A DNA stretch of 64,000 nt from Psychrobacter faecalis (lineage in GTDB: Bacteria; Pseudomonadota; Gammaproteobacteria; Pseudomonadales; Moraxellaceae), in the NCBI RefSeq assembly GCF_016107575.1, contig NZ_JABAST010000002.1, positions 1 through 64,000 of the forward strand. The letters are read 5' to 3'. The position numbers and the translations under genes are program-made. Positions 43,934 to 62,717 of this stretch are shown in pieces. Within the stretch, counting starts at the first letter, position 1, and each line of letters opens with the position of its first letter. The notes below the pieces were generated by a model. That model made no database searches. It saw only the letters and a list, made by a program, of their open reading frames with translations, and was not told where the DNA came from.

Positions 43934-43947
43934 GTCATCTCTCCTTA

Positions 43948-44802
43948 TTATTGTTTAACCGGTTGGCTGGTTTTAAAATCGACCCAATGTACAGGGGCAT
44001 CGACCGTATTTGTCGCGGGAGTGGTTCGAACGCCCGCTTTGGCCGCAAGATTCTGGGTACTCGTTTGCGACGGGCAGCGATCTTCTTGCTGTGCATCCAA
44101 AAACGTCACCACTTCCTCTTCCCATTCTTTATCTAGCGCTTCAAAGGTGTCGTCGCGCTGTTCTTTGCTGATTTGCTCTTGGTACTCTTCAACGATAGCA
44201 AGTGGCTTACCAGCGATTTGCAATAGTGCATTAAAGCAGCCTTGATAAATACTGCCGCGATCCTCTAATCGAGCAGCAAGCAGGGCGATAATATGGCTAA
44301 CATCGGCAATATCCATACGAATCTGAATATCGTCATTAATCACCGACGCTTGATAGGCTAAAAACTCAAGGTATAAAGGCAGATAGTCGGGTAATTCTTT
44401 AACACTAATCTCAAAACCAGCTGCTTCATATTGACCCATCAAATCGACCATCGCTTGACCGCGATCACGCGATTCGCCGTGTACGTGCTCGAACAACCAC
44501 AGCGATAGCGAACGACCGCGCTCAAACAGACCGTCATAACGCGCTTGTGCTTCAAGGCAACCGGTATCGATTAAATCTTCGATTAAGTCGGTGATTTGGG
44601 TGCGTACTTCTGGGCTAATTAGCGTCGAGCGCGCGACAATTTCGGTACAATCGGCGAGGGTATCACCACTAAATAGCTCATTGTTTGGATAATCTATCAG
44701 TAAGCTTAATACCTTGAGAATCATCAAATCCGAAGCACCGATAGTCGGGGGTGTCATAGGTTCATGCACGGAATGACTGTTAGGAAATTGAGTAGTTTGC
44801 AT
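43948..44802 (-). CDS. narJ: Nitrate reductase assembly chaperone
   Basis: System-specific chaperone for cofactor insertion into NarG and its membrane attachment; not part of the final complex. The helical TorD-like fold spans about residues 25-200, with LKVLSLLIDYPN and SLSLWLFEHVHGESRDRGQAM, the conserved core. The start at 44802 (MQTTQFPNS) is chosen because narH ends at 44804 and GGGAG lies seven bases before this ATG. The longer frame to 44943 would lie wholly within narH. That gives 284 residues with a C-terminal tail of about 45 Thr/Ala/Pro-rich residues, longer than most NarJ proteins. Confidence 0.94.
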   Translation of the reverse strand: MQTTQFPNSHSVHEPMTPPTIGASDLMILKVLSLLIDYPNNELFSGDTLADCTEIVARSTLISPEVRTQITDLIEDLIDTGCLEAQARYDGLFERGRSLSLWLFEHVHGESRDRGQAMVDLMGQYEAAGFEISVKELPDYLPLYLEFLAYQASVINDDIQIRMDIADVSHIIALLAARLEDRGSIYQGCFNALLQIAGKPLAIVEEYQEQISKEQRDDTFEALDKEWEEEVVTFLDAQQEDRCPSQTSTQNLAAKAGVRTTPATNTVDAPVHWVDFKTSQPVKQ

Positions 44803-44803
44803 C

Positions 44804-46342
44804 TTATGACTCCCATTTTTGGACGGTATCGATGAAATCACGGCGATTGGCTTTACGTTGTCCAAACATGCTGTTGTCAGAATGTCCTGAACAGCCTTCG
44901 CCAAAGGTGAAGCCGCAACCGTTACGCTCAGCAAAAGCGTCACTTAAAGCTTCTTCGCGGTGCGCGGTTGGGATGACAAAACGGTCTTCGTAATTGGCGA
45001 TCGCCAAGTAGCGATACATCTCTTCTACTTGCAGTTTGGTCAGACCAACATCGTCCAAGATACTTTGCACTTCTTGTTTTTCTACCAATTGCATACGCTT
45101 ATAACTGCGCATGGCAAGTAGACGTTTTAGCGCCAAACGTACTGGCTCTTCATCGCCTGCGGTTAGCATATTGGCAAGATAGCGCAGCGGAATACGTAAG
45201 CTGTCAACATCCGGAATCAGACCATCCATACCAACTTTACCGGCTTCGGCGGCGTTCTGAATCGGTGATAATGGCGGTACATACCAAACCATCGGTAGCG
45301 TACGGTATTCAGGATGCAATGGCAGCGCAAGTTTCCAATCCATCGCCAGTTTATAAACCGGCGAGCGCTGAGCTGAATCTATCACCGATTGTGGTACGCC
45401 ATCTTTTAGTGCTTGGGCGATGACCGCAGGATCATTAGGATCTAAGAAGACATCCAACTGTGCTTGATAAAGGTCTTGCTCATTCGGGGTGCTAGCGGCT
45501 TCGGCAATTTTGTCGGCATCATAAAGTAGGACGCCTAAGTAGCGGATACGGCCAACACAGGTTTCAGAACAAACCGTTGGCAGACCAGCTTCAATACGCG
45601 GATAACAAAAGATACATTTCTCAGACTTGCCCGATTTCCAGTTGTAGTAAATCTTTTTGTACGGGCAGCCTGAGATACACATACGCCAGCCGCGGCATTT
45701 TTCTTGGTCAATCAAGACAATGCCATCTTCTTCACGCTTATAAATTGCGCCGCTCGGGCATGACGCCACGCAGGTTGGGTTCAAACAATGCTCGCACAAA
45801 CGCGGCAAATACATCATAAAAGTGTTTTCGTACTGGCCATAAATATCGGCTTGGATATTGTCAAAGTTTTTGTCTTTACGGCGTTTTTCAAACTCTGAAC
45901 CTAAGATTTCTTCCCAGTTCGGACCCCACTCAATCTTTTGCATACGCTTGCCAGTAATGGCTGAGCGCGGGCGGGCGATAGGCGAGTAGTTACCGAGCGG
46001 GGCAGTATGCAAGTGCTGATAGTCAAAATCAAAGGGTTCGTAATAATCATCAATCTCTGGCAAATCAGGGTTGGCAAAAATATTCGCCAAGACGCGGAAC
46101 TTGCCACCAATACGCGGGTTTATCGTGCCGTTGGCATTACGTATCCAGCCGCCATTCCATTTATTTTGATTTTCCCATTCCTTGGGATAGCCAATGCCAG
46201 GCTTTGATTCAACGTTGTTGAACCACGCGTATTCCATGCCTTCACGGCTGGTCCAAACGTTTTTACAGGTGACCGAGCAGGTGTGACAACCGATACATTT
46301 ATCGAGGTTAAGCACCATGCCGACTTGTGAACGAATTTTCAT
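44804..46342 (-). CDS. narH: Respiratory nitrate reductase beta subunit
   Basis: Iron-sulfur electron-transfer subunit between NarI and NarG. The four cluster motifs are visible: CIGCHTCSVTC, CEHCLNPTCVASCPSG, CRGWRMCISGCPYK (Trp in place of Cys, giving the [3Fe-4S] cluster) and CIFCYPRIEAG with CSETCVGRIRY. Its 512 residues match the family. narG ends 74 bases upstream and narJ starts immediately downstream. It is cytoplasmic-side, membrane-attached through NarI. Confidence 0.97.
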   Translation of the reverse strand: MKIRSQVGMVLNLDKCIGCHTCSVTCKNVWTSREGMEYAWFNNVESKPGIGYPKEWENQNKWNGGWIRNANGTINPRIGGKFRVLANIFANPDLPEIDDYYEPFDFDYQHLHTAPLGNYSPIARPRSAITGKRMQKIEWGPNWEEILGSEFEKRRKDKNFDNIQADIYGQYENTFMMYLPRLCEHCLNPTCVASCPSGAIYKREEDGIVLIDQEKCRGWRMCISGCPYKKIYYNWKSGKSEKCIFCYPRIEAGLPTVCSETCVGRIRYLGVLLYDADKIAEAASTPNEQDLYQAQLDVFLDPNDPAVIAQALKDGVPQSVIDSAQRSPVYKLAMDWKLALPLHPEYRTLPMVWYVPPLSPIQNAAEAGKVGMDGLIPDVDSLRIPLRYLANMLTAGDEEPVRLALKRLLAMRSYKRMQLVEKQEVQSILDDVGLTKLQVEEMYRYLAIANYEDRFVIPTAHREEALSDAFAERNGCGFTFGEGCSGHSDNSMFGQRKANRRDFIDTVQKWES

Positions 46343-46415
46343 GGGGTGTGCTCCAAGCTTTTGTATAAAAGCAATTAATATAAGTACTTATCAGTAGCAA
46401 TGTATAAACGTGCTA

Positions 46416-49400
46416 TTAACCATCAAGGGTGGTTGGCAACGGACGTGGTAATGAGTCATCTGGTTTTTCTTCCAACCAATCGATTTTCGACATTTTGCGA
46501 ATCACCACGAACTCATCACGGTTACAACCGACAGTGCCATAGTAGTTAAAACCGTAAGACTGCTGCGCATAGCTGCCAATCATGTGCGTCGGTTTTAAAA
46601 TAGTACGGGTCACTGAGTTGTGAATACCACCGCGAATACCGGTTTGCTGCGAGCCCGGTACGTTGACCAATTTTTCTTGGGCGTGGTACATCATGGTCAT
46701 GCCTTCTTTGACGCGCTGACTAACGATGGCACGCGCGGTAATGGCACCGTTGGCGTTAAAGACTTCAATCCAGTCGTTATCGACGATACCGGCTTTTGCA
46801 GCATCGACTTCTGATAACCACACACAAGGACCGCCGCGGCTCAATGTCAGCATGAGCAAGTTTTCAGAGTAAGTACTATGAATACCCCATTTTTGGTGCG
46901 GTGTTAAAAAGTTCAGCACGATCTCTTTATTACCATTGGGCTTGGTATTTTGGATAATCTCCGTCGTCTTGGTGTCGATAGGCGGACGATACTGCTGCAT
47001 TTGCTCACCAAACGCCTGCATCCAAGGGTGATCTTGATAAAATTGCTGACGACCGGTAATCGTACGCCAAGGAATCAGCTCATGGACGTTGGTATAACCG
47101 GCGTTATAGCTCACTTCATCAGATTCAATACCTGACCACGTCGGGCTTGAGATGATTTTGCGTGGCTGCGCAACGATATCTTTAAAGCGAATCTTTTCAT
47201 GCTCACTGGATTTCGCCAAATGCGTATGGTCGCGACCGGTAAATTCAGACAATGCTGCCCAGCCTTTAACGGCGACGTGACCATTGGTTTCAGGAGCCAG
47301 CATCAAAATCATCTCAGACGCATTCACCGCGGTATTTAGACGAGGACGACCTTCAGAGATACCCGGCTCAGTAACACGGTGGTTTAAATCCCCCAGTTGT
47401 TTGACCTCGGTTTTCATGTCCCAATTCAAACCTTTTGAGCCATTGCCCAGTTTTTCTAAAGCCGGACCCATAGAGGTGAATTTCTTATAGGTATTGGGAT
47501 AGTCACGCTCAACGATTTTAATCATCGGGCAGTTTTTACCAGGAACTGGTTTTTCGCCAGCGGTTTTCCAGTCGGTGCCACCAAATGGCTGCGCAAGCTC
47601 GCCTGGGCTATCATGCTGCATAGGCAGAGTAACCACGTCGGTTTCCACGCCCAAATGACCTTTTGATATCTCAGAGAAGCTCTTAGCAATGCCTTTATAA
47701 ATCTCCCAATCCGTTTTAGATTCCCAAGCAGGGTCGGTGGCGGCGGTTAATGGGTGAATAAACGGGTGCATGTCTGAGGTATTCATGTCGTCTTTTTCAT
47801 ACCAAGTTGCGGTCGGCAGGACGATATCAGAGTACAAACAGGTCGAGGACATACGGAAATCAAGTGTTACGACCAAATCAAGCTTGCCAGTAGGGCCTTT
47901 TTCTACCCAATCGACTTCTTTTGGCTGCAAATGACCCGTCGGGTTTTCTTCGTTAAGCAGACCGTTTCTGGTGCCCAAGAAGTAATGAAGCATATATTCA
48001 TGACCCTTACCTGATGAACCCAAGAGGTTTGAGCGCCAAATAAACATATTGCGCGGGAAGTTCACAGGGTTGTCTGGAGACTCACAAGCAAAGCGTAAGC
48101 TGCCGTCTTCTAATGAGTCGACCACATACTCTTCCACGTCTTTACCGCTGGCTTTTGCGGCGGCGGCTATGGTCAATGGATTACGGTTGAGCTGCGGCGC
48201 TGATGGTAACCAACCTGCGCGCTCTGCTTGGATGTTGTAATCAAGCATGTGCTCTGGGAAGAATTTTTTATTGGCATTTGGCGAGAGAATCTCATGAGCT
48301 GAGATGGTTTCATGACGCCACTGTGAGCTGTGCTCATAAAAGAAGCTGGTACCGGCCATTTGGCGCGGTGGACGATGCCAATCAAGGGCAAAGGCAAGGG
48401 GTAACCAACCAGTTTGTGGGCGCAGTTTTTCTTGACCAACATAGTGCGCCCAGCCGCCGCCAGATTTGCCGATACAGCCGCACAGCATGAGCATATTAAT
48501 CACGCCGCGATAGTTCATATCGAGGTGATACCAGTGGTTCATACCCGCACCGATGATAATCATCGATTTACCATGGGTTTTATGAGCGTTTTCAGCAAAC
48601 TCGCGAGCCACTTGAATCACGCGCTCACGGCTAAGGCCGGTAATCACTTCTTGCCAAGCTGGCGTGCCCGGTACGCTTGCATCGTTATAATCATCGGTGA
48701 CGTGCTCGCCGCCGACGCCATTGTCAACACCAAGGTTGGCCACGGTTAAATCAAATACTGTCGCAACGATGGCGGTGCTGCCATCGGCAAGGGTAATGGT
48801 TTTGCAAGGGACGGTTTTTTGCTGGATAGGCTCGCCTGGTACCGAGGTAAAATGCGGATGATCCACATGACCGAAGTAGTCAAAGCCCACGACACAAGTC
48901 TCAGCGCTGTCTTTTAAGGTTAGCGTCAGATCGATATCTTCACCTGTGGTACCGTTTTTTTGCTCAAGATTCCACTTGCCTTTTTCGCCCCAACGGTAGC
49001 CGATTGAGCCCAGCGGAGAGACCAATTCGCCGTCATTATTTAAGGCAATGGTTTTCCATTCAGGATTGTTTTCTTGACCCAAATCATCGACCAAGTCAGA
49101 AGCACGCAGGTAGCGACCCGCACGGCGCGCGCCATCTTCACCTTCTAGCATTACAAGCACCGGCAAATCGGTATAACGTTTGGCGTAGTCTAAGAAGTAA
49201 TCGCTTGGCTGTTTGAGATAAAACTCTTTGATAATGACATGACAAAACGCCTGCGCCACTGCCGCATCGGTACCTTGTTTAGGATTGAGCCATAAGTCGG
49301 TGAGCTTAGAGATTTCTGCATAGTCAGGGGTGATAGAGACGGTTTTCGTGCCTTTATAACGTACTTCGGTAAAGAAATGCGCATCTGGCGTCCGCGTTTG

Positions 49401-50174
49401 CGGCACGTTTGAGCCCCAAGCGATGATATAGTCAGAGTTGTACCAATCGGCTGATTCTGGTACGTCGGTTTGCTCGCCCCAGACCATCGGTGATGACGGA
49501 GGTAAGTCACAATACCAGTCATAAAATGACAAACAAACACCGCCGATAAGCGATAAATAGCGGCTACCAGAGGCGTAACTGACCATCGACATCGCAGGAA
49601 TCGGTGAGAAACCAATAATACGGTCCGGCCCAAAGGTTTTGGCTGTATAAACGTTACTGGCAGCGATGATTTCGTTGACCTCTGCCCACGTCGAGCGGAT
49701 AAAACCACCAAGACCACGCTTAGATTTATACTGTTCAGCTTTGATAGGGTCTTGAACGATACTGCCCCAAGCATCGACAGGGTCAGGATATTGAGCTCTG
49801 GCTTCGCGCCATAATTTTAGTAGGGGTTTACGTACCTTTGGATATTTCACACGGTTAGCAGAGTACATATACCAGCTATAGCTTGCGCCGCGAGGGCAGC
49901 CGCGTGGTTCGTGGTTTGGTAAGTCGGGGCGGGTTTCAGGATAGTCGGTTTGCTGGGTTTCCCACGTCACCAAGCCGTTTTTCACATAAATTTTCCACGA
50001 GCAAGAACCGGTACAGTTGACGCCATGCGTTGAGCGCACGATTTTGTCATACTGCCAACGGCTACGATACACGTTTTCCCAGTCACGAGACTCATCACGC
50101 GTCTCGCCATGCCCATCGGAAAATTCGCCCTGTTTACGTTTAAAAAAACGGAATTGGTCGAGTAAATGGCTCAT
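46416..50174 (-). CDS. narG: Respiratory nitrate reductase alpha subunit
   Basis: Catalytic Mo-bisMGD subunit reducing nitrate to nitrite on the cytoplasmic side. The N-terminal FS0 cluster is His-ligated: THGVNCTGSCSW with GCPRGASYSW. The molybdenum aspartate lies in SFYDWYCDLPPSSPM. TGWLPLAFALDWHRPPRQ is a NarG-type active-site region, and MYHAQEKLVNVPG lies near the end. Its 1252 residues are standard (E. coli 1247). AGAGGA precedes the start. First gene of narGHJI, with a NarL-type heptamer pair about 180 bases upstream. It depends on the Mo-cofactor genes to its left. Confidence 0.98.
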   Translation of the reverse strand: MSHLLDQFRFFKRKQGEFSDGHGETRDESRDWENVYRSRWQYDKIVRSTHGVNCTGSCSWKIYVKNGLVTWETQQTDYPETRPDLPNHEPRGCPRGASYSWYMYSANRVKYPKVRKPLLKLWREARAQYPDPVDAWGSIVQDPIKAEQYKSKRGLGGFIRSTWAEVNEIIAASNVYTAKTFGPDRIIGFSPIPAMSMVSYASGSRYLSLIGGVCLSFYDWYCDLPPSSPMVWGEQTDVPESADWYNSDYIIAWGSNVPQTRTPDAHFFTEVRYKGTKTVSITPDYAEISKLTDLWLNPKQGTDAAVAQAFCHVIIKEFYLKQPSDYFLDYAKRYTDLPVLVMLEGEDGARRAGRYLRASDLVDDLGQENNPEWKTIALNNDGELVSPLGSIGYRWGEKGKWNLEQKNGTTGEDIDLTLTLKDSAETCVVGFDYFGHVDHPHFTSVPGEPIQQKTVPCKTITLADGSTAIVATVFDLTVANLGVDNGVGGEHVTDDYNDASVPGTPAWQEVITGLSRERVIQVAREFAENAHKTHGKSMIIIGAGMNHWYHLDMNYRGVINMLMLCGCIGKSGGGWAHYVGQEKLRPQTGWLPLAFALDWHRPPRQMAGTSFFYEHSSQWRHETISAHEILSPNANKKFFPEHMLDYNIQAERAGWLPSAPQLNRNPLTIAAAAKASGKDVEEYVVDSLEDGSLRFACESPDNPVNFPRNMFIWRSNLLGSSGKGHEYMLHYFLGTRNGLLNEENPTGHLQPKEVDWVEKGPTGKLDLVVTLDFRMSSTCLYSDIVLPTATWYEKDDMNTSDMHPFIHPLTAATDPAWESKTDWEIYKGIAKSFSEISKGHLGVETDVVTLPMQHDSPGELAQPFGGTDWKTAGEKPVPGKNCPMIKIVERDYPNTYKKFTSMGPALEKLGNGSKGLNWDMKTEVKQLGDLNHRVTEPGISEGRPRLNTAVNASEMILMLAPETNGHVAVKGWAALSEFTGRDHTHLAKSSEHEKIRFKDIVAQPRKIISSPTWSGIESDEVSYNAGYTNVHELIPWRTITGRQQFYQDHPWMQAFGEQMQQYRPPIDTKTTEIIQNTKPNGNKEIVLNFLTPHQKWGIHSTYSENLLMLTLSRGGPCVWLSEVDAAKAGIVDNDWIEVFNANGAITARAIVSQRVKEGMTMMYHAQEKLVNVPGSQQTGIRGGIHNSVTRTILKPTHMIGSYAQQSYGFNYYGTVGCNRDEFVVIRKMSKIDWLEEKPDDSLPRPLPTTLDG

Positions 50175-50559: not shown

Positions 50560-51939
50560 TTAGCAAGGTATCTCAGCATTCGGGCGGCTGTAATACCACC
50601 AAGTTAATGCAATACAGAGGACATAAAAGGTGATTAAAGAGATAAAGGTGCCATCGATACCCAGCCCTGAACCGAACATTTTTGGCACAAAGAAAGCGCC
50701 ATAAGCGGCAACCGCTGAGGTAAAGCCGACCACTGCTGCTGACTCTTTACGTATCTCGACAAATAACTCTTCTGTACCCGCTTTTTCAGGCTCACGGCGG
50801 TCATGAAAGGTTCTAAAAATAACCGGAATCATGGTAAAGGTTGAGCCGTTACCGATACCGGTGGTGATAAAGAGCACCATAAAGGAGATAAAGTAGCCGA
50901 CAAAGCTGCCGTCACTGGTCTCACTAGGTAAGAAGTACATCACCGCTAGTACCGCTAGTACCATCACGATATAGTTCCAAAACGTGACCTTTGCGCCGCT
51001 GGTTTTATCAGATATCCAGCCCCCTAATGGGCGAAATAACGCGCCAACCAAAGGCCCTAAAAAGGCAAATTTAAGTGCGTCAATAGCAGGGAAGGAGTTT
51101 TTAATCAACATCGGGAAGGCGGCAGAAAAGCCAATAAAAGAGCCAAACGTCGCCATATAAAGGATACACATAATCCAGTTATGTTTGCGTTTAAAGATAA
51201 CCGATTGGTCTTTGAACGACGCTTTAGCAGTGGCGATATCGTTCATGCCAAACCAAGCCAATGCCGTAAATAGCAAGATAAAGGGTACCCAAATAAAGCC
51301 TGCATTTTGTAGATAAAATAATCGACCGCTGTCAGATACTTGTGGATCGCCGCCCAAGCTACCAAAAGCGCCAATTAAGATAATCATCGGTACCACAAAC
51401 TGCATGACAGAGACGCCTAGATTACCCAAACCAGCGTTTAGGCCAAGCGCTGTACCTTGTTCGGCTTTTGGATAAAAGAACGAAATATTGGACATAGACG
51501 ACGCAAAGTTACCACCGCCAAAGCCGCACAGTAGGGCGATAATGGCAAATATAATAAACGGTGTATCAGGGTTTTGTACCGCAAAACCCATCCATAACGC
51601 GGGTATTAATAAAGATAAGGTGGATATCGCTGTCCAACGACGTCCACCAAAAATAGGTACCATAAAAGAATAAAAAATCCGCAGCGTCGCCCCTGACAGC
51701 CCCGGTAATGCAGCCAGCCAAAATAGCTGTCCGCCATCAAAATCAAAGCCAATCTCTGGCAAGCGCACGATGACCGCGCTCCATACCATCCATACTGCAA
51801 ACGCCAATAGCAAAGATGGAATAGATATCCATAAATTTCGCGTGGCGACTTTTTTGCCGCCGCCTTGCCAAAACTCTTCTACTTCAGGTCGCCAGTCAGT
51901 AATGAGCGTACCACCTTTGAAGTTGTATTTATTGCCCAT
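50560..51939 (-). CDS. narK: Nitrate/nitrite transporter, NarK type II (antiporter-like)
   Basis: Major-facilitator protein of the nitrate/nitrite porter group. The N-terminal cytoplasmic lead MGNKYNFKGGTLITDWRPE and the first helix region WSAVIVRLPEIGF match E. coli NarK. The NNP signature in helix 5 is GFGGGNFASSMSNISFFYPK, and a second Gly-rich one is TTGIGNGSTFTMIPVIF. It has twelve helices in 459 residues. The start at 51939 is preferred because GAGGAAGAGT precedes it. Its type suggests nitrate/nitrite exchange. The other NarK in the window is of the symporter type, as in pseudomonad NarK1K2 pairs. Confidence 0.93.
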   Translation of the reverse strand: MGNKYNFKGGTLITDWRPEVEEFWQGGGKKVATRNLWISIPSLLLAFAVWMVWSAVIVRLPEIGFDFDGGQLFWLAALPGLSGATLRIFYSFMVPIFGGRRWTAISTLSLLIPALWMGFAVQNPDTPFIIFAIIALLCGFGGGNFASSMSNISFFYPKAEQGTALGLNAGLGNLGVSVMQFVVPMIILIGAFGSLGGDPQVSDSGRLFYLQNAGFIWVPFILLFTALAWFGMNDIATAKASFKDQSVIFKRKHNWIMCILYMATFGSFIGFSAAFPMLIKNSFPAIDALKFAFLGPLVGALFRPLGGWISDKTSGAKVTFWNYIVMVLAVLAVMYFLPSETSDGSFVGYFISFMVLFITTGIGNGSTFTMIPVIFRTFHDRREPEKAGTEELFVEIRKESAAVVGFTSAVAAYGAFFVPKMFGSGLGIDGTFISLITFYVLCIALTWWYYSRPNAEIPC

Positions 51940-52034
51940 ACTCTTCCTCACTTATTGTCTTTATAAAAAATAAGTATTTATAAAAAATGATAACTCACGG
52001 TACTTTGTTATCGGGATAATGAGTATTCATACAT

Positions 52035-52070: not shown

Positions 52071-52227
52071 ATAGAATTATTACCAAAAGTTTGGTTTTTT
52101 AATGATTAATAAGCGCATTTGTTATTTTGAATACGGATGGTTTTGAATGTCGACGGTTTTAAAATGAACGACTCTAATAGTGTTATTTATCCCCTGTTTT
52201 CGCTAATTTGCTAGGTGAATGCCATTC

Positions 52228-54279
52228 ATGAGGTCTAAACAACACAGACAGTCTTTATCGCTGCATGCTTGGGGCGCTATTTTGATCATAGCCACCTTAG
52301 CGGTGATGTCTACGCTAGGAAGTGGCGCGCTGGCATGGGTAGCAAGGTCGGATGCTGAGGCCATTAATGTGGCAGGTTCGGTGCGTATGGCAACTTACCG
52401 ACTCAATTTTCAGATAGCCACGGATTTTTCAGATGACCATCCTTTTAGCCCAAGTTTACATGTCGGACAAAACAGCGTAGGCGATAAAACCAATGCGCAG
52501 AGCGCCAAACAGGATAAATTAGACTTTGCCAATAAAACGACCGCTGAAAAGATAGATATTCTCAGCCGCGATATGGAAAACCGTCTCGAAGAATTGCAGG
52601 TCTATCAGCTGACGAGCGCCAATCGACATGTGCGCATCAATGAGCAGCTTAAAGAGATAAAAGAGCAGTGGTATCAAGATTTAAAGCCAGCATTATTGGC
52701 GCAAGATAAGCAAGGGTTTTATAGCGTCTCGTCGCGTTATATCGAAGATGTCAATGACTTCGTCGGTGAGTTGCAATACCGAAACGAGCAGCGCCAGACA
52801 TGGCAACAAAACTTACAAATCCTCTCATTGCTGCTTATCGCTATTATCGTATTAATCGGCATGCGCCGTTTGCAAAAATCGATACTGCTGCCCATTCAGC
52901 AATTGATTAAAGCCAATAACCAATTCAAACGAGGGCAGACTCAGACGCGTGTGTCCATCAAGGGCTACCGAGAATTTGAAGTATTGGGCAGCTCTTTTAA
53001 TGACATGGCGGGCACGATTGAAACCTATCAGCGCTCGCTTGAGAGTGAAGTACAAATAAAAACCCAGCATTTGGTTAAAGCCAATCAAGTGCTATCGCTG
53101 TTTTATGACTTTTCAAAATCGCTGACCACCAGCCAAGTGAGCTTATATCAGCTCGATGACTTGATTGCAGACTTTAGCAAAGCGCTGCCGCATTTAGAAT
53201 TTACCTTGTGTATTCAAAATAAATATATCACCAATAAAAATGCTATCGTGCTGCACGGCGAAAAAATGAAAGAGCTATGCAAAAAGCTGAGCTGTGAAAG
53301 CTGTGGCATTAAAAATGGCGAGCATACCAAGTCTTATCCTATCGTCCATCAGCAAGAAACCTTTGGGGAATTGCGCGTACGACCAAAGTCGACGCTGGTC
53401 ATGAATCGCTCTTTTGTCACTGATGGCGACGATAATGCTGATAATCATAGCAATATAACGGCAGAACAGCGTATTCAAATGACCGAAGCGGGCAGCATTT
53501 TCCCGTTTGTCAGTGCCGAGTTGGATGCACAAAATGACGAGCTCATCGTGGCGCTGACCAATTTAATCAGTACCGCCTTATCACTGCGCAAACAAAGACA
53601 GCAAGAGCATCAGCTGATTTTGTTTGAAGAGCGCTCAACCATTGCCCGTGAGCTGCATGATTCCTTGGCGCAGTCGTTATCTTATTTAAAAATCCAAGTC
53701 AGCGTCCTTGAGCGACATCTAAAAAATGCGGGTAGCGAGCCAGTACAAGCGCCTGTTTATCAAAACATTGAGCAGATAAAAATAGGTTTGGGTTCCGCTT
53801 ATCAGCAGCTAAGAGACTTGTTGGTGACGTTCCGCTTGACCATTGATAATGATAACTTTGATGAAGCACTACGTGATGCTGCCAGTGAGTTTGCCTCAAA
53901 AGGCAATTTTAATATGACCGTGCACAATCGGATTATGACGCTCAATTTAAGCGCCACTGAACAGATAGATTTGATACAGATTGCCAGAGAAGCACTATCA
54001 AACATCAGCCGTCACGCCAAGGCAAAAAATGTAGAGATTCAATTGGCGTACGAGGACGGCGATAAATATATCGTCATGAGTATCATCGACGATGGCGTTG
54101 GCATGTCAGGAAGTGTCGATCAAACCCAACACCACGGCCTCATCATTATGAAAGAGCGCGCCCACAACATCGGCGGCGAGCTTATTGTCACAGACAATCA
54201 ACCGCAGGGTACCATCATCACGGTCAGATTTGCGCCCAACTTCTTTGATGAAAAAAATACCCAAGACGCTTATTTATAA
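52228..54279 (+). CDS. narX: Nitrate/nitrite sensor histidine kinase
   Basis: Membrane sensor that phosphorylates NarL in response to nitrate. Two membrane helices (about 12-35 and 195-215) flank a periplasmic domain. This begins with the nitrate-binding P-box AINVAGSVRMATYRLNFQIA. A HAMP domain follows, then a cysteine-bearing central module (CKKLSCESCG, as in NarX), the HisKA_3 helix ARELHDSLAQSLSYLK, and an ATPase domain ending DDGVGMSG and HHGLIIMKERA. The ATG at 52228 has AGGTG ten bases ahead. An alternative ATG at 52219 overlaps that ribosome site. It has about 683 residues, somewhat over E. coli NarX (598). narL follows. Confidence 0.94.
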   Translation: MRSKQHRQSLSLHAWGAILIIATLAVMSTLGSGALAWVARSDAEAINVAGSVRMATYRLNFQIATDFSDDHPFSPSLHVGQNSVGDKTNAQSAKQDKLDFANKTTAEKIDILSRDMENRLEELQVYQLTSANRHVRINEQLKEIKEQWYQDLKPALLAQDKQGFYSVSSRYIEDVNDFVGELQYRNEQRQTWQQNLQILSLLLIAIIVLIGMRRLQKSILLPIQQLIKANNQFKRGQTQTRVSIKGYREFEVLGSSFNDMAGTIETYQRSLESEVQIKTQHLVKANQVLSLFYDFSKSLTTSQVSLYQLDDLIADFSKALPHLEFTLCIQNKYITNKNAIVLHGEKMKELCKKLSCESCGIKNGEHTKSYPIVHQQETFGELRVRPKSTLVMNRSFVTDGDDNADNHSNITAEQRIQMTEAGSIFPFVSAELDAQNDELIVALTNLISTALSLRKQRQQEHQLILFEERSTIARELHDSLAQSLSYLKIQVSVLERHLKNAGSEPVQAPVYQNIEQIKIGLGSAYQQLRDLLVTFRLTIDNDNFDEALRDAASEFASKGNFNMTVHNRIMTLNLSATEQIDLIQIAREALSNISRHAKAKNVEIQLAYEDGDKYIVMSIIDDGVGMSGSVDQTQHHGLIIMKERAHNIGGELIVTDNQPQGTIITVRFAPNFFDEKNTQDAYL

Positions 54280-54412
54280 TCGAATAAAATTACGCTTTTA
54301 GATAATAGATTTATCATTTTCGCTGTTTTTACTTTGCCATTTTTTGTTTTTTTAAGCAGTTTTTTTGAGTAAGAGAGTTTTTGTACCATTTTTTCTAATT
54401 TGTGAGTATGTT

Positions 54413-55072
54413 ATGAGCACTAAAGTTTATACCAGCATGTCGCCTGCGCGCCTACTATTGGTCGATGACCATCCGATGTTACGCCGCGGTATCTCTGAAT
54501 TACTAAGCCTTGAGGACGATGTCGAAGTCGTTGGCGAAGCCAGTAACGGTCAAGAAGCATTGGCATTTTTAGAAAATAACGACGTGGATTTGGTGATACT
54601 TGATCATAAAATGCCAGTACTGACCGGTATCGAAACCTTACGAGAAATCAAAGCCAGAAATATCAATACCAAGACCGTGTTATTCACGGTTTCAGATAGC
54701 GGCGAGGATGTCCAAGAGGCATTGAAATTGGGCGTCGATGGTTATCTACTAAAAGATATGGAACCTGAGCTGATTATCATTGATATCAGAAAAATCCTGC
54801 GCGGCGAGCTGGTCATTAGTCCAAACCTTGCCTCGATACTTGCCCAAACCTTGCGCACACCCAGTATCGAAGATATCGCCAGTAATTTGACCAGCCGAGA
54901 GCTGCAAGTGATTCAGATGATTGCTGAAGGGCTGAGTAATAAAATGATTGCCAACAATTTGGATATTGCCGAGTCGACAGTAAAAGTCCATGTCAAACAT
55001 ATTCTCAATAAAACGGGTCTGCGCACGCGTGTAGAAGCGGCGGTGTGGACGGTTAATCATTTATCTAAATAA
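54413..55072 (+). CDS. narL: Nitrate response regulator
   Basis: Partner of NarX that binds TACYNMT heptamers. The receiver domain has LLLVDDHPMLRRGI, phosphoacceptor Asp64 in LVILDHKMP and Lys at YLLKDMEPE. The LuxR-type helix-turn-helix is LTSRELQVIQMIAEGLSNKMIA and TVKVHVKHILNKTGL. The ATG at 54413 gives 219 residues, close to E. coli NarL (216). The longer frame from 54365 adds a hydrophobic stretch without family support. The heptamer pairs near narG, moaA and narK-narX are its likely targets. Confidence 0.95.
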   Translation: MSTKVYTSMSPARLLLVDDHPMLRRGISELLSLEDDVEVVGEASNGQEALAFLENNDVDLVILDHKMPVLTGIETLREIKARNINTKTVLFTVSDSGEDVQEALKLGVDGYLLKDMEPELIIIDIRKILRGELVISPNLASILAQTLRTPSIEDIASNLTSRELQVIQMIAEGLSNKMIANNLDIAESTVKVHVKHILNKTGLRTRVEAAVWTVNHLSK

Positions 55073-55237: not shown

Positions 55238-56494
55238 ATGATGACATCTAACTTATTTGACCAAAAAACCGCTCATGCGACTGCTGAGGTCACTATTTGT
55301 AAAGACAGTGATTTGCGCGTCCTGACCGATAACTTACGGCAAGCGCATGATGTCATAAAAAATGACGCAGGGGAGTGGGTGTTGTTACGCCATGCAGATG
55401 TAGTGGCGGCGGCTTTAGATGATGAGCGTTTTTCTAGTCAGGTGTCGCGTTTTTTGCAAGTACCCAATGGTTTGGACGGCGCAGAGCACGAGCATTTTAG
55501 GGCGCTGATTGATGGCTACCTTAGTAAAGAAGCGCTGATGGATTATGTCCCTGTTTTTGACAAGGTTGCAACAGAATTAATGAGTGAGCTACCAAAAGGT
55601 AAAATGCTCAATGCAGTCGTTGATATCGGCGCGGTATTTGCGGTCCGCGCCCAATGCGCGTGGCTTGGTTGGCCTACTGAATTAGAACCGAAACTTTTAC
55701 AGTGGATGCGCGACAATCACAGCGCTACTCGCTCAAAAGACGACGTAAAAATGGCACAAGTCGCGCAAGACTTCGATGATATTATCCGCTCGGTGTTACA
55801 GCCGTACCGCAATACTGACGAAGTGACTGGCATGTTTAAAGCGAGCACTGCTGAAACCAACACTGCTGGAAACAATATCGCTAAAAATAATATCGCTAAA
55901 AACAGCCTTGATATGAATAGCGTCACCGCTCAATTGTGCCGTGAGCGTATCGATGGGCGTGAGCTGAGCGAAGCCGAACTGGTTTCTATTTTGCGTAATT
56001 GGACTGGCGGCGATTTGGGGTCTATCGCTTTGTGTGTCGGCGTTATCATCGCTCATATTGTCAAGCATCCTGAGCAAGTAAACTTCTGGTCGCAGGCTGC
56101 TGATAGCGAACTTGAGGCTATCATCGACGAGGTATTACGAATTGACGACCCTTTCGTCTCAAACCGCCGTATCACTACGTGTCCCGTTTCCATTGGCGCG
56201 CATAAGCTACCCAAAGGCGCGCGCGTACAGTTAAACTGGACATCAGCCAATCGCGACGAAGCGGTGTTTGGTGATAACAGTTTCGATCCTCAAGAGCATG
56301 CCGCTGCTAACGTGGTTTATGGTATTGGCAAGCACGTTTGCCCGGGGCGCCTGCTTGCTACTTGGCAGCTTAGAATTGCTACTCAAGCACTATTAGCCCA
56401 TTTCACAGATATCACCTTAGCGGCAGGTTTTTCTTTAGAGCGTGAGCAGCCACCATTGGGCGGTTATAGTCATGTGCCTGTGGTGCTAGCTTAA
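55238..56494 (+). CDS. Cytochrome P450 of unknown substrate
   Basis: Soluble P450 of 418 residues located between narXL and narK. The haem-thiolate cysteine is Cys368 in VYGIGKHVCPGRLLA, with Tyr in place of the usual Phe of FxxGxxxCxG. The K-helix ExxR is Glu298-Arg301. The I-helix, normally A/G-G-x-D/E-T, reads TGGDL (256-260), so the oxygen-activating Thr is missing. An Asn/Ala/Lys-rich insert (about 200-230) contains two copies of a 15-bp tandem repeat. No redox partner gene is adjacent. Loss of the Thr and the location among N-oxide genes hint at a non-monooxygenase reaction. That is speculation. Confidence 0.88.
   Translation: MMTSNLFDQKTAHATAEVTICKDSDLRVLTDNLRQAHDVIKNDAGEWVLLRHADVVAAALDDERFSSQVSRFLQVPNGLDGAEHEHFRALIDGYLSKEALMDYVPVFDKVATELMSELPKGKMLNAVVDIGAVFAVRAQCAWLGWPTELEPKLLQWMRDNHSATRSKDDVKMAQVAQDFDDIIRSVLQPYRNTDEVTGMFKASTAETNTAGNNIAKNNIAKNSLDMNSVTAQLCRERIDGRELSEAELVSILRNWTGGDLGSIALCVGVIIAHIVKHPEQVNFWSQAADSELEAIIDEVLRIDDPFVSNRRITTCPVSIGAHKLPKGARVQLNWTSANRDEAVFGDNSFDPQEHAAANVVYGIGKHVCPGRLLATWQLRIATQALLAHFTDITLAAGFSLEREQPPLGGYSHVPVVLA
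55871..55900 (+). repeat. 15-bp tandem repeat inside the P450 gene
   Basis: AACAATATCGCTAAA (55871-55885) is followed by AATAATATCGCTAAA (55886-55900), one difference. It encodes NNIAK-NNIAK. The unit keeps the frame, so copy number could vary without breaking the gene. Confidence 0.7.
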
Positions 56495-56614: not shown

Positions 56615-58093
56615 TTAGCCTTGTTCTGCGGCAATCTGACGATCGACAGAGGACATTTTATATTCATCACCAAAGGCGTCTTCGGGCTCTGCCAACCAGA
56701 AATAACACACAATCCATGCGACAAATGCGCCAACTGCAATGATATAAAAGAACTGATTGGGCTCTACAAAGGTATAAATGAATAAGTAAAATACCGCGCC
56801 CACGTTCCCATAAGCGCCTGCCATACCTGATATCTGACCGGTCAGACGACGTTTAATCGAGGGAATGATACCAAAGGTCGCGCCTTCGGCTCCTTGTACA
56901 AATACCGAGCACAAAATGGTAAACACCACGGCGATAAATAACGGCCACTCGGCATTAAGCACGCCCATCAGCACAAAACCAATGCCGATACCAAACATAT
57001 AAACCAACATCACCAAACGGCGATTACCGATTTTGTCAGAGATATAGCCGCCAAGTGGCCGCGCCCATAAGTTAACAAAGGCAAAGGTAGAGGCAATCAA
57101 ACCAGCCGCCGTTGGATCAAGTTTCCAAGTTGCGGCAAAGAACATCGGCAGCATAGAAACCACCGCCAGTTCTGCACCAAAGTTAGCAAAATAGCTGACG
57201 TTTAGCGCCGCTACCGATTTAAAGGGGTATTTATCATCTTCTGGAATACCGGCTTTAATCACAGGTACGTTAACGCTAATGGCTTTATAGATTTGGTAAA
57301 TGACCATCACTATAATGACGCTATAACAAATAATACCGCCAGTGGCACTTAAAAACCCCATCGCTTGGGTACGATACACCAGCAGCGATAAGACGCCGTA
57401 TAAAGGAATGATAAATAAGCAATATAACCACAAATCCTTCCACGTCGATACTTCTAACGCGCCCGCTTTGCGAGATTTTTTATGCGTACCAACTTCTGGC
57501 CCATCGGTAATCAAAAACCAATAGGCCACGCCGTATAAGGCCATTAACAAACCTGATAGCGCAATTGCCCAGCGCCAGCCATCGTCGCCGCCAAAGAACT
57601 GCAAAGCAACGGTTGGAATGGTAATCGCCGCCGCCGCTGAACCAAAGTTGCCCCAGCCAGCATAAAAACCTTCGGCAAAACCGATGTCTTTTGGCTTAAA
57701 CCATAAAGTGGTCATATGAATACCGACGACGAAACCGGCTCCGACGATCGACATAAATAAGCGCGAGACGAATAGCTGGGTTGCCGAGTTACCAAACGCA
57801 AAAAACCACGTCGGTATCGCCATCACGACCATCAGGATAGAAAACACACGCCGCGGACCAAAACGGTCCAATGCCATGCCGACGATAACCCGCCCAGGAA
57901 TCGTTAGCGCGACGTTGGCGATTAAAAATAATTTGATGTGGTCAGGGGTCAGATAGCTTTCTGTCTGTAGCATCGATGTTGCCAGCGGTGCCATATTAAA
58001 CCAGACATAAAAGGTGAGGAAAAAAGCAATCCACGTATAGTGCAGCGCCCTGATATCACGGCGCTCAAGCTCAAGTAATTCTTTGGCATGCAT
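56615..58093 (-). CDS. narK: Nitrate transporter, NarK type I (symporter-like)
   Basis: Major-facilitator nitrate porter of 492 residues, clearly different from the other NarK. It begins MHAKELLELERRDIRALHYTW and shows the type I segments FVWFNMAPL-like FYVWFNMAPLATSM, EGFYAGWGNFGSAAAA (helix 5) and EGATFGIIPSIKRRLTGQISG (helix 11). Type I proteins are proton/nitrate symporters that start nitrate respiration. GGGGAC lies before the ATG at 58093. The longer frame from 58165 has no ribosome site. Heptamer TACTACT (58197-58203) lies about 105 bases upstream, compatible with NarL control. Confidence 0.93.
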   Translation of the reverse strand: MHAKELLELERRDIRALHYTWIAFFLTFYVWFNMAPLATSMLQTESYLTPDHIKLFLIANVALTIPGRVIVGMALDRFGPRRVFSILMVVMAIPTWFFAFGNSATQLFVSRLFMSIVGAGFVVGIHMTTLWFKPKDIGFAEGFYAGWGNFGSAAAAITIPTVALQFFGGDDGWRWAIALSGLLMALYGVAYWFLITDGPEVGTHKKSRKAGALEVSTWKDLWLYCLFIIPLYGVLSLLVYRTQAMGFLSATGGIICYSVIIVMVIYQIYKAISVNVPVIKAGIPEDDKYPFKSVAALNVSYFANFGAELAVVSMLPMFFAATWKLDPTAAGLIASTFAFVNLWARPLGGYISDKIGNRRLVMLVYMFGIGIGFVLMGVLNAEWPLFIAVVFTILCSVFVQGAEGATFGIIPSIKRRLTGQISGMAGAYGNVGAVFYLFIYTFVEPNQFFYIIAVGAFVAWIVCYFWLAEPEDAFGDEYKMSSVDRQIAAEQG

Positions 58094-58314
58094 AATAATG
58101 TCCCCATTATAAATTCTGATGCTGGTAATGGATACAAAATAGCAATAATGGGGCAGCATCACCATTGAGCGAAAGCAGTATAGGGCGTAGTTTGTATACT
58201 ACTTATGGACAGGGCGACCGTTAATGGGGCGGCGATCGCATTTAAGGTGTTACATTTTTATAGATAGTCAAAACATACAAAGCTAGTAAAAGCTTTTAAA
58301 AGGTGCTATTTTAT

Positions 58315-58414: not shown

Positions 58415-58822
58415 ATGAGTTCTGATACCCAAACCAATCCTAATCCCGTCATTCCAAGCCATTGGAAAATCAAACGTTCGACACACTTCTTCACCAAAGA
58501 TAAAGTACCCAATGCTTTATTGACCCATCACAATACGGCTGAGGGCGTTTACGGCCAAATCTGCGTCATGCAAGGTACGGTGACTTTTTATGGTTTCGCT
58601 GACGAAGCGGCCACTGAGCCAGAAAAAACAGTCGTTATCAACGCCGGACAGTTTGCGGTCAGTCCACCGCAATATTGGCACCGCGTAGAGTTAAGCGATG
58701 ATGCTCAGTTTAATATCAACTTTTGGACAGAAGGCGATACTGGCAATAAATCGATGTTTAACAGCTCGAAAATCCATAGTAAACCTATCGAAAAGTTATT
58801 TGATAAACCAGAGGAATCTTAA
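58415..58822 (+). CDS. DUF1971 (YeaR/TehB-like) cupin protein
   Basis: Small cupin-like protein of 135 residues of the DUF1971 family, whose E. coli member YeaR is induced by nitrate and NO through NarL and NsrR. Biochemical function is not known. Segments visible are WKIKRSTHFFTKDKVPNALL, THHNTAEGVYGQICVMQGTV, the cupin-type PPQYWHRVELS with a possible metal-binding His, and FNINFWTEGD. TAAGGAG precedes the ATG. The next gene starts 110 bases downstream. Location between narK and norZ fits the known nitrate/NO link. The Fur-like box adds possible iron control. Confidence 0.87.
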   Translation: MSSDTQTNPNPVIPSHWKIKRSTHFFTKDKVPNALLTHHNTAEGVYGQICVMQGTVTFYGFADEAATEPEKTVVINAGQFAVSPPQYWHRVELSDDAQFNINFWTEGDTGNKSMFNSSKIHSKPIEKLFDKPEES

Positions 58823-60410: not shown

Positions 60411-62717
60411 ATGGGCGAATATAAAAAGTATTGGTGGGGCTTAATCGCCGTCCTCGTCATTACCTTTACCTTTTTAGGTTGGGGCGGCGTGGAAGTCTAT
60501 CGCACCGCACCTCCTATCCCTGATCAGTATATTGATAGCAGCGGAAAGGCATTAATCACAGAAGAAGATATTTTAGATGGTCAATCTGCTTGGCAGCGCA
60601 CGGGAGGACAGCAGCTTGGCTCGATACTTGGACATGGTGCCTATCAAGCGCCTGACTGGACAGCAGATTGGTTACACAGAGAGCTTGTGGCGTGGTTAGA
60701 TATCCGGGCGCAAGAGTTATATGGACATGATTTTGCCGCGGCAACGAATGATCAAAAAGCGGTACTTAGCGCGCAACTGAAAAAAGAATATCGTGGCAGC
60801 AATACCAATGCTAACAATCAAGTGGTACTGTCAGATACGCGTATCGCCGCTATTAATGAAGTCGCGCCTTACTATATCGGTCTCTACGGTAATGAGCCTT
60901 CATTGCAAAAGTCGCGTGAAAATTTTGCCATGAAAAACAATACTTTGGCAGATATTGAAGACAGACAAAAACTGACTAACTTTTTCTTTTGGACCACTTG
61001 GGTTGCGTCTACCAACCGTCCGGGTACTGATGCGACATATACCAATAACTGGCCGCATGAGCCTTTAATTGATAACGTCCCAACCTCTGAAAATATCATG
61101 TGGTCTATCGCCAGTGTGGTGTTCTTAATCGCTGGGGTTGGTTTTCTTATTTGGGGCTGGTCGTTCTTACGTAAAGAAGAAGACGTCAAAGAAGCAACGG
61201 CAAGTTCTGATCCATTAACCAAAGTGGCGTTAACACCGTCACAAAAAGCCTTGGCAAAATACGGTGTACTAGTCGTTGCTCTATTCGTATTTCAGGTATT
61301 TATTGGTGGCTTTGTCGCGCACTATACCGTTGAAGGGCAAGAGTTTTATGGTATCGCCGTATCCGATTACTTCCCGTATTCGTTAGTACGTACGTGGCAT
61401 ATTCAGGCAGCACTATTTTGGATTGCTACTGCTTTCTTGATGGCAGGCTTGTACTTAACGCCACTTATCAATGGCGGTAAAGACCCCAAATACCAGAAAT
61501 TGGGCGTAGACATCCTTTGGGTGGCATTAATACTCGTGGTTGTAGGCTCATTTGTTAGTCAGTACTTTGCGATTGCCGGTATTATGCCTGCAAAATACAA
61601 CTTCTGGTTTGGTCATCAAGGCTATGAATTCATTGACCTTGGTCGCTTCTGGCAGATTTTAAAATGGGTTGGTATCTTATTCTGGTTGGTATTGATGACC
61701 CGTGGCTGTTTACCAGCGCTTAGAAGAAAAGAGGGCGGTGATAAAAATTTATTGGCCATCTTCTTTGCATCAGTCGTTTGCGTGGGTTTATTCTACGGTG
61801 CAGGCTTGTTCTACGGCGAGCGTACCCACTTAACCATCATGGAATACTGGCGCTGGTGGGTGGTACATTTATGGGTAGAAGGCTTCTTTGAAGTATTCGC
61901 CACCGTCTCACTCGCATTCATTTTCTACAACTTAGGCTTGGTCAACAAAAAAATCGCCACCGGTTCTGCCATCGCTTCAGCAGCCCTATTCATGCTTGGC
62001 GGTGTCCCAGGTACGTTCCACCATTTATATTTCTCTGGTACAACCACACCAGTCATGGCAATCGGCGCGTCATTTAGTGCTTTAGAAGTGGTACCTTTAG
62101 TGGTGCTAGGCTATGAAGGTTATGAGCATTGGTCTATGCAGCGTCAAGCGCCATGGATGAATAAGCTTAAATGGCCTATCATGTGTTTCGTTGCGGTCGC
62201 GTTCTGGAATATGTTGGGTGCAGGGGTGTTCGGCTTTATGATTAACCCACCAGTCTCATTGTTCTATTTACAAGGGTTAAATACTACCGCCACTCACTCA
62301 CATGCTGCACTGTTTGGGGTCTATGGCTTCTTAGCAATCGGCTTTGTATTACTGGTCATGCGCTATATCCGTCCTGATTATGTGTTTAGTGAAAACCTTA
62401 TCAAAACTGGTTTTTGGGCACTAAATGCAGGCTTGGTATTGATGATTGTCACTAGCTTATTACCGATTGGTATTTTCCAAGCGCACGCGTCAATGACCGA
62501 AGGTCTATGGTACGCACGTAGTGAAGGCTTCTTACAACAAGATTTCTTAGTAACACTGCGCTGGATTCGTACCTTTGCTGACGTGATCTTTATTACTGGT
62601 GCGGTTTGTGTGGCACTGCAGGTCGTCAAGTTTGCTTTTGCCAAACCCTCACATGCAAACTATCAACCTGATAGCCCTGTAAATTCAGATAACTTACCAA
62701 CCAACACCGTACATTAA
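60411..62717 (+). CDS. norZ: Quinol-dependent nitric oxide reductase (qNOR)
   Basis: Inner-membrane enzyme reducing two NO to N2O with electrons from quinol. At 768 residues it is the fused single-subunit form. The N-terminal helix and a periplasmic cytochrome-c-like domain without a CxxCH haem site (about 35-220) are followed by twelve helices of the NorB core. Haem and FeB ligands are in RTWHIQAALFWIATAF, WWVVHLWVEGFFEVFATV and GTFHHLYFSGTT, with Glu residues for proton transfer. AGGAGC precedes the start. A nirK or nirS gene is not in the window, so the role here may be NO detoxification as much as denitrification. Confidence 0.97.
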   Translation: MGEYKKYWWGLIAVLVITFTFLGWGGVEVYRTAPPIPDQYIDSSGKALITEEDILDGQSAWQRTGGQQLGSILGHGAYQAPDWTADWLHRELVAWLDIRAQELYGHDFAAATNDQKAVLSAQLKKEYRGSNTNANNQVVLSDTRIAAINEVAPYYIGLYGNEPSLQKSRENFAMKNNTLADIEDRQKLTNFFFWTTWVASTNRPGTDATYTNNWPHEPLIDNVPTSENIMWSIASVVFLIAGVGFLIWGWSFLRKEEDVKEATASSDPLTKVALTPSQKALAKYGVLVVALFVFQVFIGGFVAHYTVEGQEFYGIAVSDYFPYSLVRTWHIQAALFWIATAFLMAGLYLTPLINGGKDPKYQKLGVDILWVALILVVVGSFVSQYFAIAGIMPAKYNFWFGHQGYEFIDLGRFWQILKWVGILFWLVLMTRGCLPALRRKEGGDKNLLAIFFASVVCVGLFYGAGLFYGERTHLTIMEYWRWWVVHLWVEGFFEVFATVSLAFIFYNLGLVNKKIATGSAIASAALFMLGGVPGTFHHLYFSGTTTPVMAIGASFSALEVVPLVVLGYEGYEHWSMQRQAPWMNKLKWPIMCFVAVAFWNMLGAGVFGFMINPPVSLFYLQGLNTTATHSHAALFGVYGFLAIGFVLLVMRYIRPDYVFSENLIKTGFWALNAGLVLMIVTSLLPIGIFQAHASMTEGLWYARSEGFLQQDFLVTLRWIRTFADVIFITGAVCVALQVVKFAFAKPSHANYQPDSPVNSDNLPTNTVH

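Follow-up and report, generated by a model that had tools for sequence, protein, structure and literature searches.

The window, by which we mean the whole stretch of 64,000 nucleotides of Psychrobacter faecalis DNA analysed here, carries a cytochrome P450 gene within a nitrate respiration cluster. The earlier note had placed this P450 inside such a cluster, right after narXL and facing narK, and the annotation agrees: narGHJI, the narX/narL pair and two narK-type genes surround the open reading frame, the kinase and NarL genes precede it on the same strand, and the nearer narK-type gene approaches it on the other. The features are as follows.

41796-42977, minus strand: flavohaemoglobin of hmp type, with globin, FAD and NAD domains (domain matches)
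43208-50174, minus strand: narGHJI, as the four genes below
43208-43933, minus strand: narI (position and recognition)
about 43948-44943, minus strand: narJ (position and recognition)
44804-46342, minus strand: narH, part of narGHJI
46416-50174, minus strand: narG (2288 bits against TIGR01580)
50560-51951, minus strand: narK-type transporter (sequence recognition; homologues in other nar loci)
52219-54279, plus strand: nitrate sensor kinase of NarX/NarQ type (NarQ 362 bits, under the curated cut-off of 553)
54365-55072, plus strand: NarL response regulator, start codon uncertain (NCBIfam NarL 258.6 bits, cut-off 250)
55238-56494, plus strand: P450 gene, 418 amino acids (open reading frame and Pfam match)
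55430-55489, plus strand: short B-C loop FSSQVSRFLQVPNGLDGAEH, residues 65-84 (alignment to P450nor and other P450s)
55991-56026, plus strand: I-helix signature LRNWTGGDLGSI, residues 252-263 (family alignment)
56129-56140, plus strand: ExxR, E298-R301 (E and R invariant in 32/32)
56318-56347, plus strand: haem loop YGIGKHVCPG, residues 361-370, with Cys368 as ligand and Tyr361 in place of Phe (32-sequence alignment)
56615-58165, minus strand: second narK-type transporter, convergent with the P450 gene (similarity to the transporter of locus L013)
58415-58822, plus strand: DUF1971 protein, a relative of the TehB N-terminal domain (domain match)
60411-62717, plus strand: quinol-type nitric oxide reductase, norB (sequence recognition; NCBIfam gave no match)

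The P450 reading frame is intact from its ATG start, matches the Pfam p450 model (PF00067) at E 2.7e-15, and is the single P450 found by a PF00067 scan of the source genome (G000, 106 contigs); no NCBIfam model claims it at its cut-off. It begins 165 bases after narL, itself preceded by the kinase gene. Comparison with the P. immobilis copy (dN 0.10, dS 0.56, dN/dS about 0.17) indicates that the gene is under purifying selection. Among its neighbours, the second narK-type protein is 28% identical over 220 residues to the annotated nitrate/nitrite transporter of L013, and the flavohaemoglobin scores 410 bits on the NCBIfam model for NO-inducible flavohaemoprotein, slightly below the cut-off of 432. 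Ferredoxin or reductase partner genes for the P450 were not recognised between 26 and 64 kb of the window. The P450 gene also holds an Asn-rich insert at 55853-55915 with the short repeat NNIAKNNIAKN, which among 32 aligned P450s has a comparable but altered counterpart only in P. immobilis.

A profile built from ten relatives separated this P450 and its homologues sharply from other P450s: in the order sample, members scored 422-638 bits and the next P450s (L056 and L057) 192 and 180, and on a larger family profile these two reached 211 and 204 bits, with no P450 outside the family above 211. On these scores the family is distinct, and it is also rare. Counting the window's own genome in each sample, strong members occur in 5/105 genomes of the genus, and members in 16/293 genomes of the order, 6/303 at the class draw and 5/398 at the phylum draw. 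In 9/10 family genomes scanned with PF00067 the family member is the sole P450. Of 20 plasmid records listed, nine match with at least 30% identity across 90% of the query, their carriers being Deinococcus, Burkholderiales, Rhizobiaceae and a cyanobacterium; IMG/VR yielded one P450 only, a distant one (L073). We excluded L056, L057, L038 and L039 from the family, and a Neobacillus match (L003) turned out not to be a P450. The tree and residue counts rest on 32 of the 35 loci, leaving out L054, L061 (frame broken) and L072 (truncated; this G1007 copy scores 289 bits on the family profile). The frame change in the Ensifer copy (L061, 10001-11058) lies in a nor-like region with transposase-like genes, and the G1007 copy (L072, 9740-10300) looks broken by its truncation. 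In G296, a further family genome, the P450 (L055, 9443-10597) is found just downstream of a tuf-like gene and beside a transposase-like gene, both by recognition, and looks like an insertion.

The active-site residues required a re-reading of the I-helix. The earlier note took the letters TGGDL as a replacement of the AGxD/ET motif and concluded that the I-helix threonine is absent. These letters are present at residues 256-260, but the register is wrong: the threonine position corresponds to S262, and position 262 holds Thr in 20, Ser in 11 and Pro in 1 of 32 sequences. The proline belongs to the L036 P450, which has nar genes near it. Position 261, the place of the canonical acid (which we take to be P450cam Asp251), is Gly in 31/32 relatives including the window's G261. 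The stretch reaching to the HP motif aligns without gaps to P450nor and other P450s, and the distance from position 262 to the ExxR Glu is 35 residues in 20/32 sequences, 36 in 10/32 (window included) and 37 in 2/32, against 35 from T243 to E278 in P450nor by hand count on a PDB-verified sequence. HMMER itself placed the motif differently from one solved chain to another: it opened a gap within the motif against CYP125MRCA, put the gap later against 5vws and needed none against 4rm4 and 7y9o. The alignments therefore do not all agree on the register, and what settles it in our view is that the L015 and L071 P450s have one residue fewer and read A-G-H-G-T (A-G-x-G-T), which identifies the Thr/Ser as kept and the acid as Gly. 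The alignment thus points to an alcohol retained, an acid replaced by glycine and one residue apparently inserted upstream in the other 30 P450s, so that the acid-alcohol pair of class I monooxygenases, (A/G)Gx(D/E)T, is broken by Gly in 31/32 sequences.

E298, R301 and C368, which mark the P450 superfamily, are present in 32/32 sequences, an NRR after ExxR is nearly invariant, and the Tyr for Phe substitution ahead of the haem cysteine was read correctly by the earlier note, being Tyr in 31 and Trp in 1 of 32. Beyond these, R253, N254, W255, G258, N309 and W334 are identical in 32/32 sequences at identities to the window P450 down to 31%, the RNW of the I helix and the NRR forming a distal-side signature, and the B-C loop / B' helix region is reduced in length compared with P450nor and the other aligned P450s. 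Residues so fixed would suit a single, conserved small substrate more readily than the diverse substrates that monooxygenases accept. A single-sequence AlphaFold2 model of the window P450 reached a pLDDT of 34, too low for use.

The corrected register brings the family nearer to fungal P450nor (CYP55A1) in one respect. P450nor A242/T243 align to the window's G261/S262, and neither A-G-N-A-T in P450nor nor G-D-L-G-S in the window has an acid before the Thr/Ser; the Thr-to-ExxR spacing is comparable (35 against 35-37 in the family) and the denitrification setting is shared. The earlier objection to the analogy, that P450nor keeps its I-helix threonine, therefore falls, because the Thr/Ser is retained and the acid missing here as in the A-G-N-A-T of P450nor. 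In other respects the two proteins differ. On the family profile P450nor reaches 130 bits, a score exceeded by four of five other P450s, and it is absent from the window P450's 60 best solved chains; its own nearest solved chains outside CYP55 are pentalenic acid synthase and P450-SU1, whereas the family's best solved matches are CYP125MRCA (8vxi), 5vws and 4rm4. The NADH-site residues K62, R64, S73, S75, R174 and S286 align to S66, Q68, a gap, a gap, A163 and P305, the proton-path residue D393 falls in a gap with D88 also unmatched, and the B' helix region is missing. We accordingly rejected membership of CYP55, since the NADH-site residues are absent and P450nor is no nearer to the window P450 than ordinary P450s are. 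Of the P450nor-type role imagined by the earlier note, the N-oxide connection extends beyond the window and the Thr/Ser is kept, but a direct NADH-using mechanism is unsupported because the NADH-site residues are absent. An excerpt of PMC4030948 has Ser286, Thr243 and Ala239 of P450nor in contact with NADH, and a passage of PMC10743073 names its Cys352.

Ordinary soluble bacterial P450 monooxygenases share the superfamily sequence, ExxR and the Cys loop with the window family and differ in the Gly of the acid-alcohol pair, the short B-C loop and the invariant RNW. P450-derived glycosyltransferase activators (TIGR04515), in which the haem Cys is lost, are also set apart: the window P450 scores 52.7 against 343 bits and has the haem Cys. 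TxtE, the 4-nitrotryptophan synthase, is a P450 that uses NO according to part of PMC3840065, but the window P450 reaches 57.4 bits against the 500-bit cut-off of TIGR04458 and the gene setting differs. The nearest parallel by description is Nitrosocosmicus oleophilus, a prokaryote for which a section of PMC6775971 proposes a P450 in NO reduction; it is an archaeal nitrifier, and the same section calls the archaeal P450 NO reductases and the fungal clade polyphyletic. P450 NO reduction is otherwise thought of as fungal: in the portion of PMC4250227 consulted, p450nor was looked for in fungal genomes only, and an older paper on P450 in nitrate-grown rhizobia appears as a citation in an extract of PMC6710368. 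Our literature search, which covered few subscription papers, gave no report that we recognised of a P450 linked in bacteria to nar, nir or nnrS loci.

The nitrogen-oxide setting recurs across the family. By inspection, 20/35 family loci, window included, have N-oxide genes within about 10 kb of the P450. Namely, nar genes lie near it in the window, L002, L036, L037, L046, L047, L049, L050, L053, L070, L013 and L060, with narXL as neighbour in the window, L002 and L037 and narGHJI in L013 and L060; L045 has a haem-d1 cluster with NirJ and NorR above NCBIfam cut-offs and a flavohaemoglobin-type (hmp) gene; L062 has nirK above its NCBIfam cut-off; and nnrS is near in L014 and L061 (Pfam), in L069, and in L048, L068 and L072 (PF05940 positions). 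The arrangement can be tight: narL and the P450 of Psychrobacter G029 are just 25 bases apart, and on two Burkholderiales plasmids (L013, L060) the P450 lies downstream of narGHJI-ppi-narK, all on one strand. No firm N-oxide gene was found within about 10 kb in the other 15/35 loci (L041, L059, L040, L042, L043, L044, L051, L052, L054, L055, L058, L011, L012, L015 and L071), of which L051 and L054 are short contigs. L041 was left uncounted with a COX3/COX4-type pair by Pfam that may be norEF; its Rrf2 regulator was considered as NsrR and rejected, the best NCBIfam model being the SUF regulator (124 bits, above cut-off) and NsrR reaching 42 against 182. In L011 the P450 sits inside a sulfate/sulfite assimilation cluster. 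In L071 the genes for an Rrf2 regulator and a DUF1971-TehB fusion stand in line with the P450, and in the window the DUF1971 gene adjoins narK. In L059 (4437-9076; Psychrobacter G044) the genes recognised ahead of the P450 are molybdoenzyme and maturation genes, and not nar; narG of that genome lies at a distance of about 0.39 Mb.

A blind marker scan at a threshold of E 1e-20, with references from a locus excluded when that locus was scanned, was positive in 14/35 P450 loci (4.7 to 25 kb long) and in 6/60 random windows of 20 kb drawn from family genomes on the contigs carrying the P450 (p 8e-4). Before this exclusion the count was 17/35, a figure inflated because some marker references came from scanned loci. 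Without the five reference-donor loci (window, L013, L014, L045, L062) it was 12/30 (p 0.0013). Two of the six positive random windows contain the P450 (L109, L120) and one abuts a P450 locus (L090); without donors and without the three random windows that overlap or abut a P450, the comparison is 12/30 against 3/57 (p 1e-4). The same scan found an N-oxide marker in 0/4 other P450 loci. On the family tree the N-context label changes 7-8 times, with L041 counted as an N locus, and this number of changes with different N genes on different branches argues against one inherited accident. The association between this P450 and N-oxide genes exceeds chance and turns up in separate lineages that differ in their N genes. 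Whether homologues lie mostly outside nitrogen clusters, the finding that the earlier note held would count against a nitrogen link, is a close matter locally, with the majority inside by inspection and fewer than half by the strict scan, and is clearer at genome level.

There, the co-occurrence with narGHJI that the earlier note had proposed to check is seen with narG: counting narG when over the model cut-off, it is present in 12/16 P450-positive genomes of the order sample against 57/277 others (p 1e-5, kinship uncorrected), and in 5/5 against 40/100 in the genus (p 0.013, genomes treated as independent). Other NO-related genes were compared between 26 family genomes, six of them from the wider class (G698, G780, G900, G945, G1007, G1027), and 47 controls, every sixth genome handle, all from the order. 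NnrS is found in 25/26 against 25/47 (genomes treated as independent), and at least two NnrS matches in 15/26 against 3/47, one match being a fragment in G000 and G164. A qNor-like gene is found in 19/26 against 9/47 at E 1e-20 and in 17/26 against 5/47 at E < 1e-100, a cut picked after the search. One family genome, G310, has the P450 among unrelated genes and no narG over the cut-off; elsewhere it has a nir-like cluster that includes a gene with a cytochrome-d1 domain.

Several further genes accompany the family. A divergent NnrS paralogue (under 200 bits, PF05940) occurs in 14/26 family genomes (two as fragments or split) and 2/47 controls; it adjoins the P450 in G155 and G945, is one gene off in L014 (133 bits), and in G000 lies on contigs C73 (L074, 7583-8674) and C84 (L075, 710-1963). 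It may be a functional partner of the P450. Orphan genes for SdhB-like Fe-S proteins, with 2Fe-2S and 4Fe-4S domains, stand beside or near the P450 in 5/35 loci, the window not among them.

L050, 8531-9268: SdhB-like gene
L049, 10683-11408: SdhB-like gene
L043, 8618-9319: SdhB-like gene
L047, about 8959-9277: SdhB-like gene
L045, 12682-13383: SdhB-like gene

One SdhB homologue is found in each of five Psychrobacter genomes and two in G224, and the orphan protein is a possible electron donor candidate for the P450. Genes for HTHP, the hexameric tyrosine-coordinated haem protein (PF11534), lie near the P450 in four loci.

L045, 13451-13711: HTHP gene
L049, 8521-8832: HTHP gene
L050, 10607-10921: HTHP gene
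L070, 9102-9368: HTHP gene

Scans for FNR, NarL and NsrR motifs upstream of 23 family genes gave scattered matches and no common site. NarL heptamers stand upstream in the window, L041 and L069, that of the window being absent from its nearest relative; weak FNR-like sites occur in L045 and L050, and weak NsrR-like sites in L050, L061, L069 and L071. At the window's P450 locus, promoter-like sites number 3 against 2.9 in shuffles, no excess, and terminator-like sites 3 against 1.7, all three within the P450 gene.

Taken together, we favour, at a little short of an even chance, an accessory haem-thiolate enzyme of N-oxide metabolism that would most likely consume NO or an NO-derived species. 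The main alternative is a monooxygenase or peroxygenase whose substrate would be one fixed organic compound (a cofactor, quinone, haem or lipid) that nitrate respiration produces or requires, the enzyme being co-regulated with nar and having no contact with NO. The intact ExxR and Cys and the Ser/Thr retained at the O2-activating position suit such an enzyme, as do cofactor genes recognised near some family P450s (molybdoenzyme and maturation genes in L059, moeA/hemN-like in L068, mog-like in L014); yet these neighbours are few and differ between loci whereas genes for nar and NO stress are found near the P450 repeatedly, Gly takes the place of the acid in 31/32 sequences, and a dedicated redox partner was not seen in the window at 26-64 kb. 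We consider this alternative unlikely, with a modest chance of being right. That the protein is no enzyme but a haem-thiolate NO sensor or carrier signalling to a partner protein appears quite unlikely: its position after NarXL in the window, the invariant pocket residues and a lone PAS protein gene adjoining the P450 in two Burkholderiales loci (L013, L060) would agree with signalling, but a similarity scan of other loci detected no such PAS gene next to the P450, the P450 carries no added domain, and P450s are not known to act as sensors of this kind. An ordinary P450, horizontally transferred and lying near nar by chance, would account for the patchy spread over genus and order, the plasmid copies and the 15/35 loci without a firm N gene; the recurrence of the association in separate lineages with different N genes, and its persistence at genome level, make mere chance quite unlikely as well. 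Nitration of an aromatic compound with NO and O2, as by TxtE, draws on the NO-rich context and on TxtE being the second-best NCBIfam model (57 bits), but is very unlikely given a score so far under the 500-bit cut-off, contexts of mostly anoxic respiration, and NO synthase or peptide-synthesis genes that were not recognised nearby.

Under the favoured reading of an NO-consuming accessory enzyme, the window P450 would belong to a bacterial family serving N-oxide respiration or detoxification, in which the haem-thiolate iron would bind and consume NO, or a species derived from it such as HNO, peroxynitrite or an S-nitroso compound. The simplest route would be reduction to N2O, which fits the family because the chemistry of NO can do without the acid and without room for a bulky substrate, and P450nor offers a precedent. 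Since the NADH-site residues of P450nor are missing, another electron source would be needed, and electrons might come from a ferredoxin-like partner such as the orphan SdhB-like protein or from NAD(P)H through some other mode of binding. The enzyme's companions in Psychrobacter would be Hmp, NorB and the DUF1971 protein, and NarXL may control it. Counting against NO consumption are the 15/35 loci without a firm N gene and the lack of a shared FNR, NarL or NsrR site upstream; the need for an extra NO reductase is also not obvious, because most family genomes already hold a qNor-like gene. That a bacterial P450 lineage outside CYP55 independently became a soluble NO reductase, or another NO-consuming haem-thiolate enzyme, is a bolder proposition that we regard as rather unlikely.

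The accepted agents of NO removal in bacteria are haem-copper NorB, flavodiiron proteins and Hmp. If the proposition holds, the P450 would be an uncounted source of N2O in denitrifiers and nitrate respirers, and together with the divergent NnrS and an unusual Fe-S donor it would form a new NO-handling module. The tie of this P450 family to nar, nir and nnrS makes it a candidate NO-handling enzyme, and a possible source of N2O, in Psychrobacter and several proteobacterial groups.
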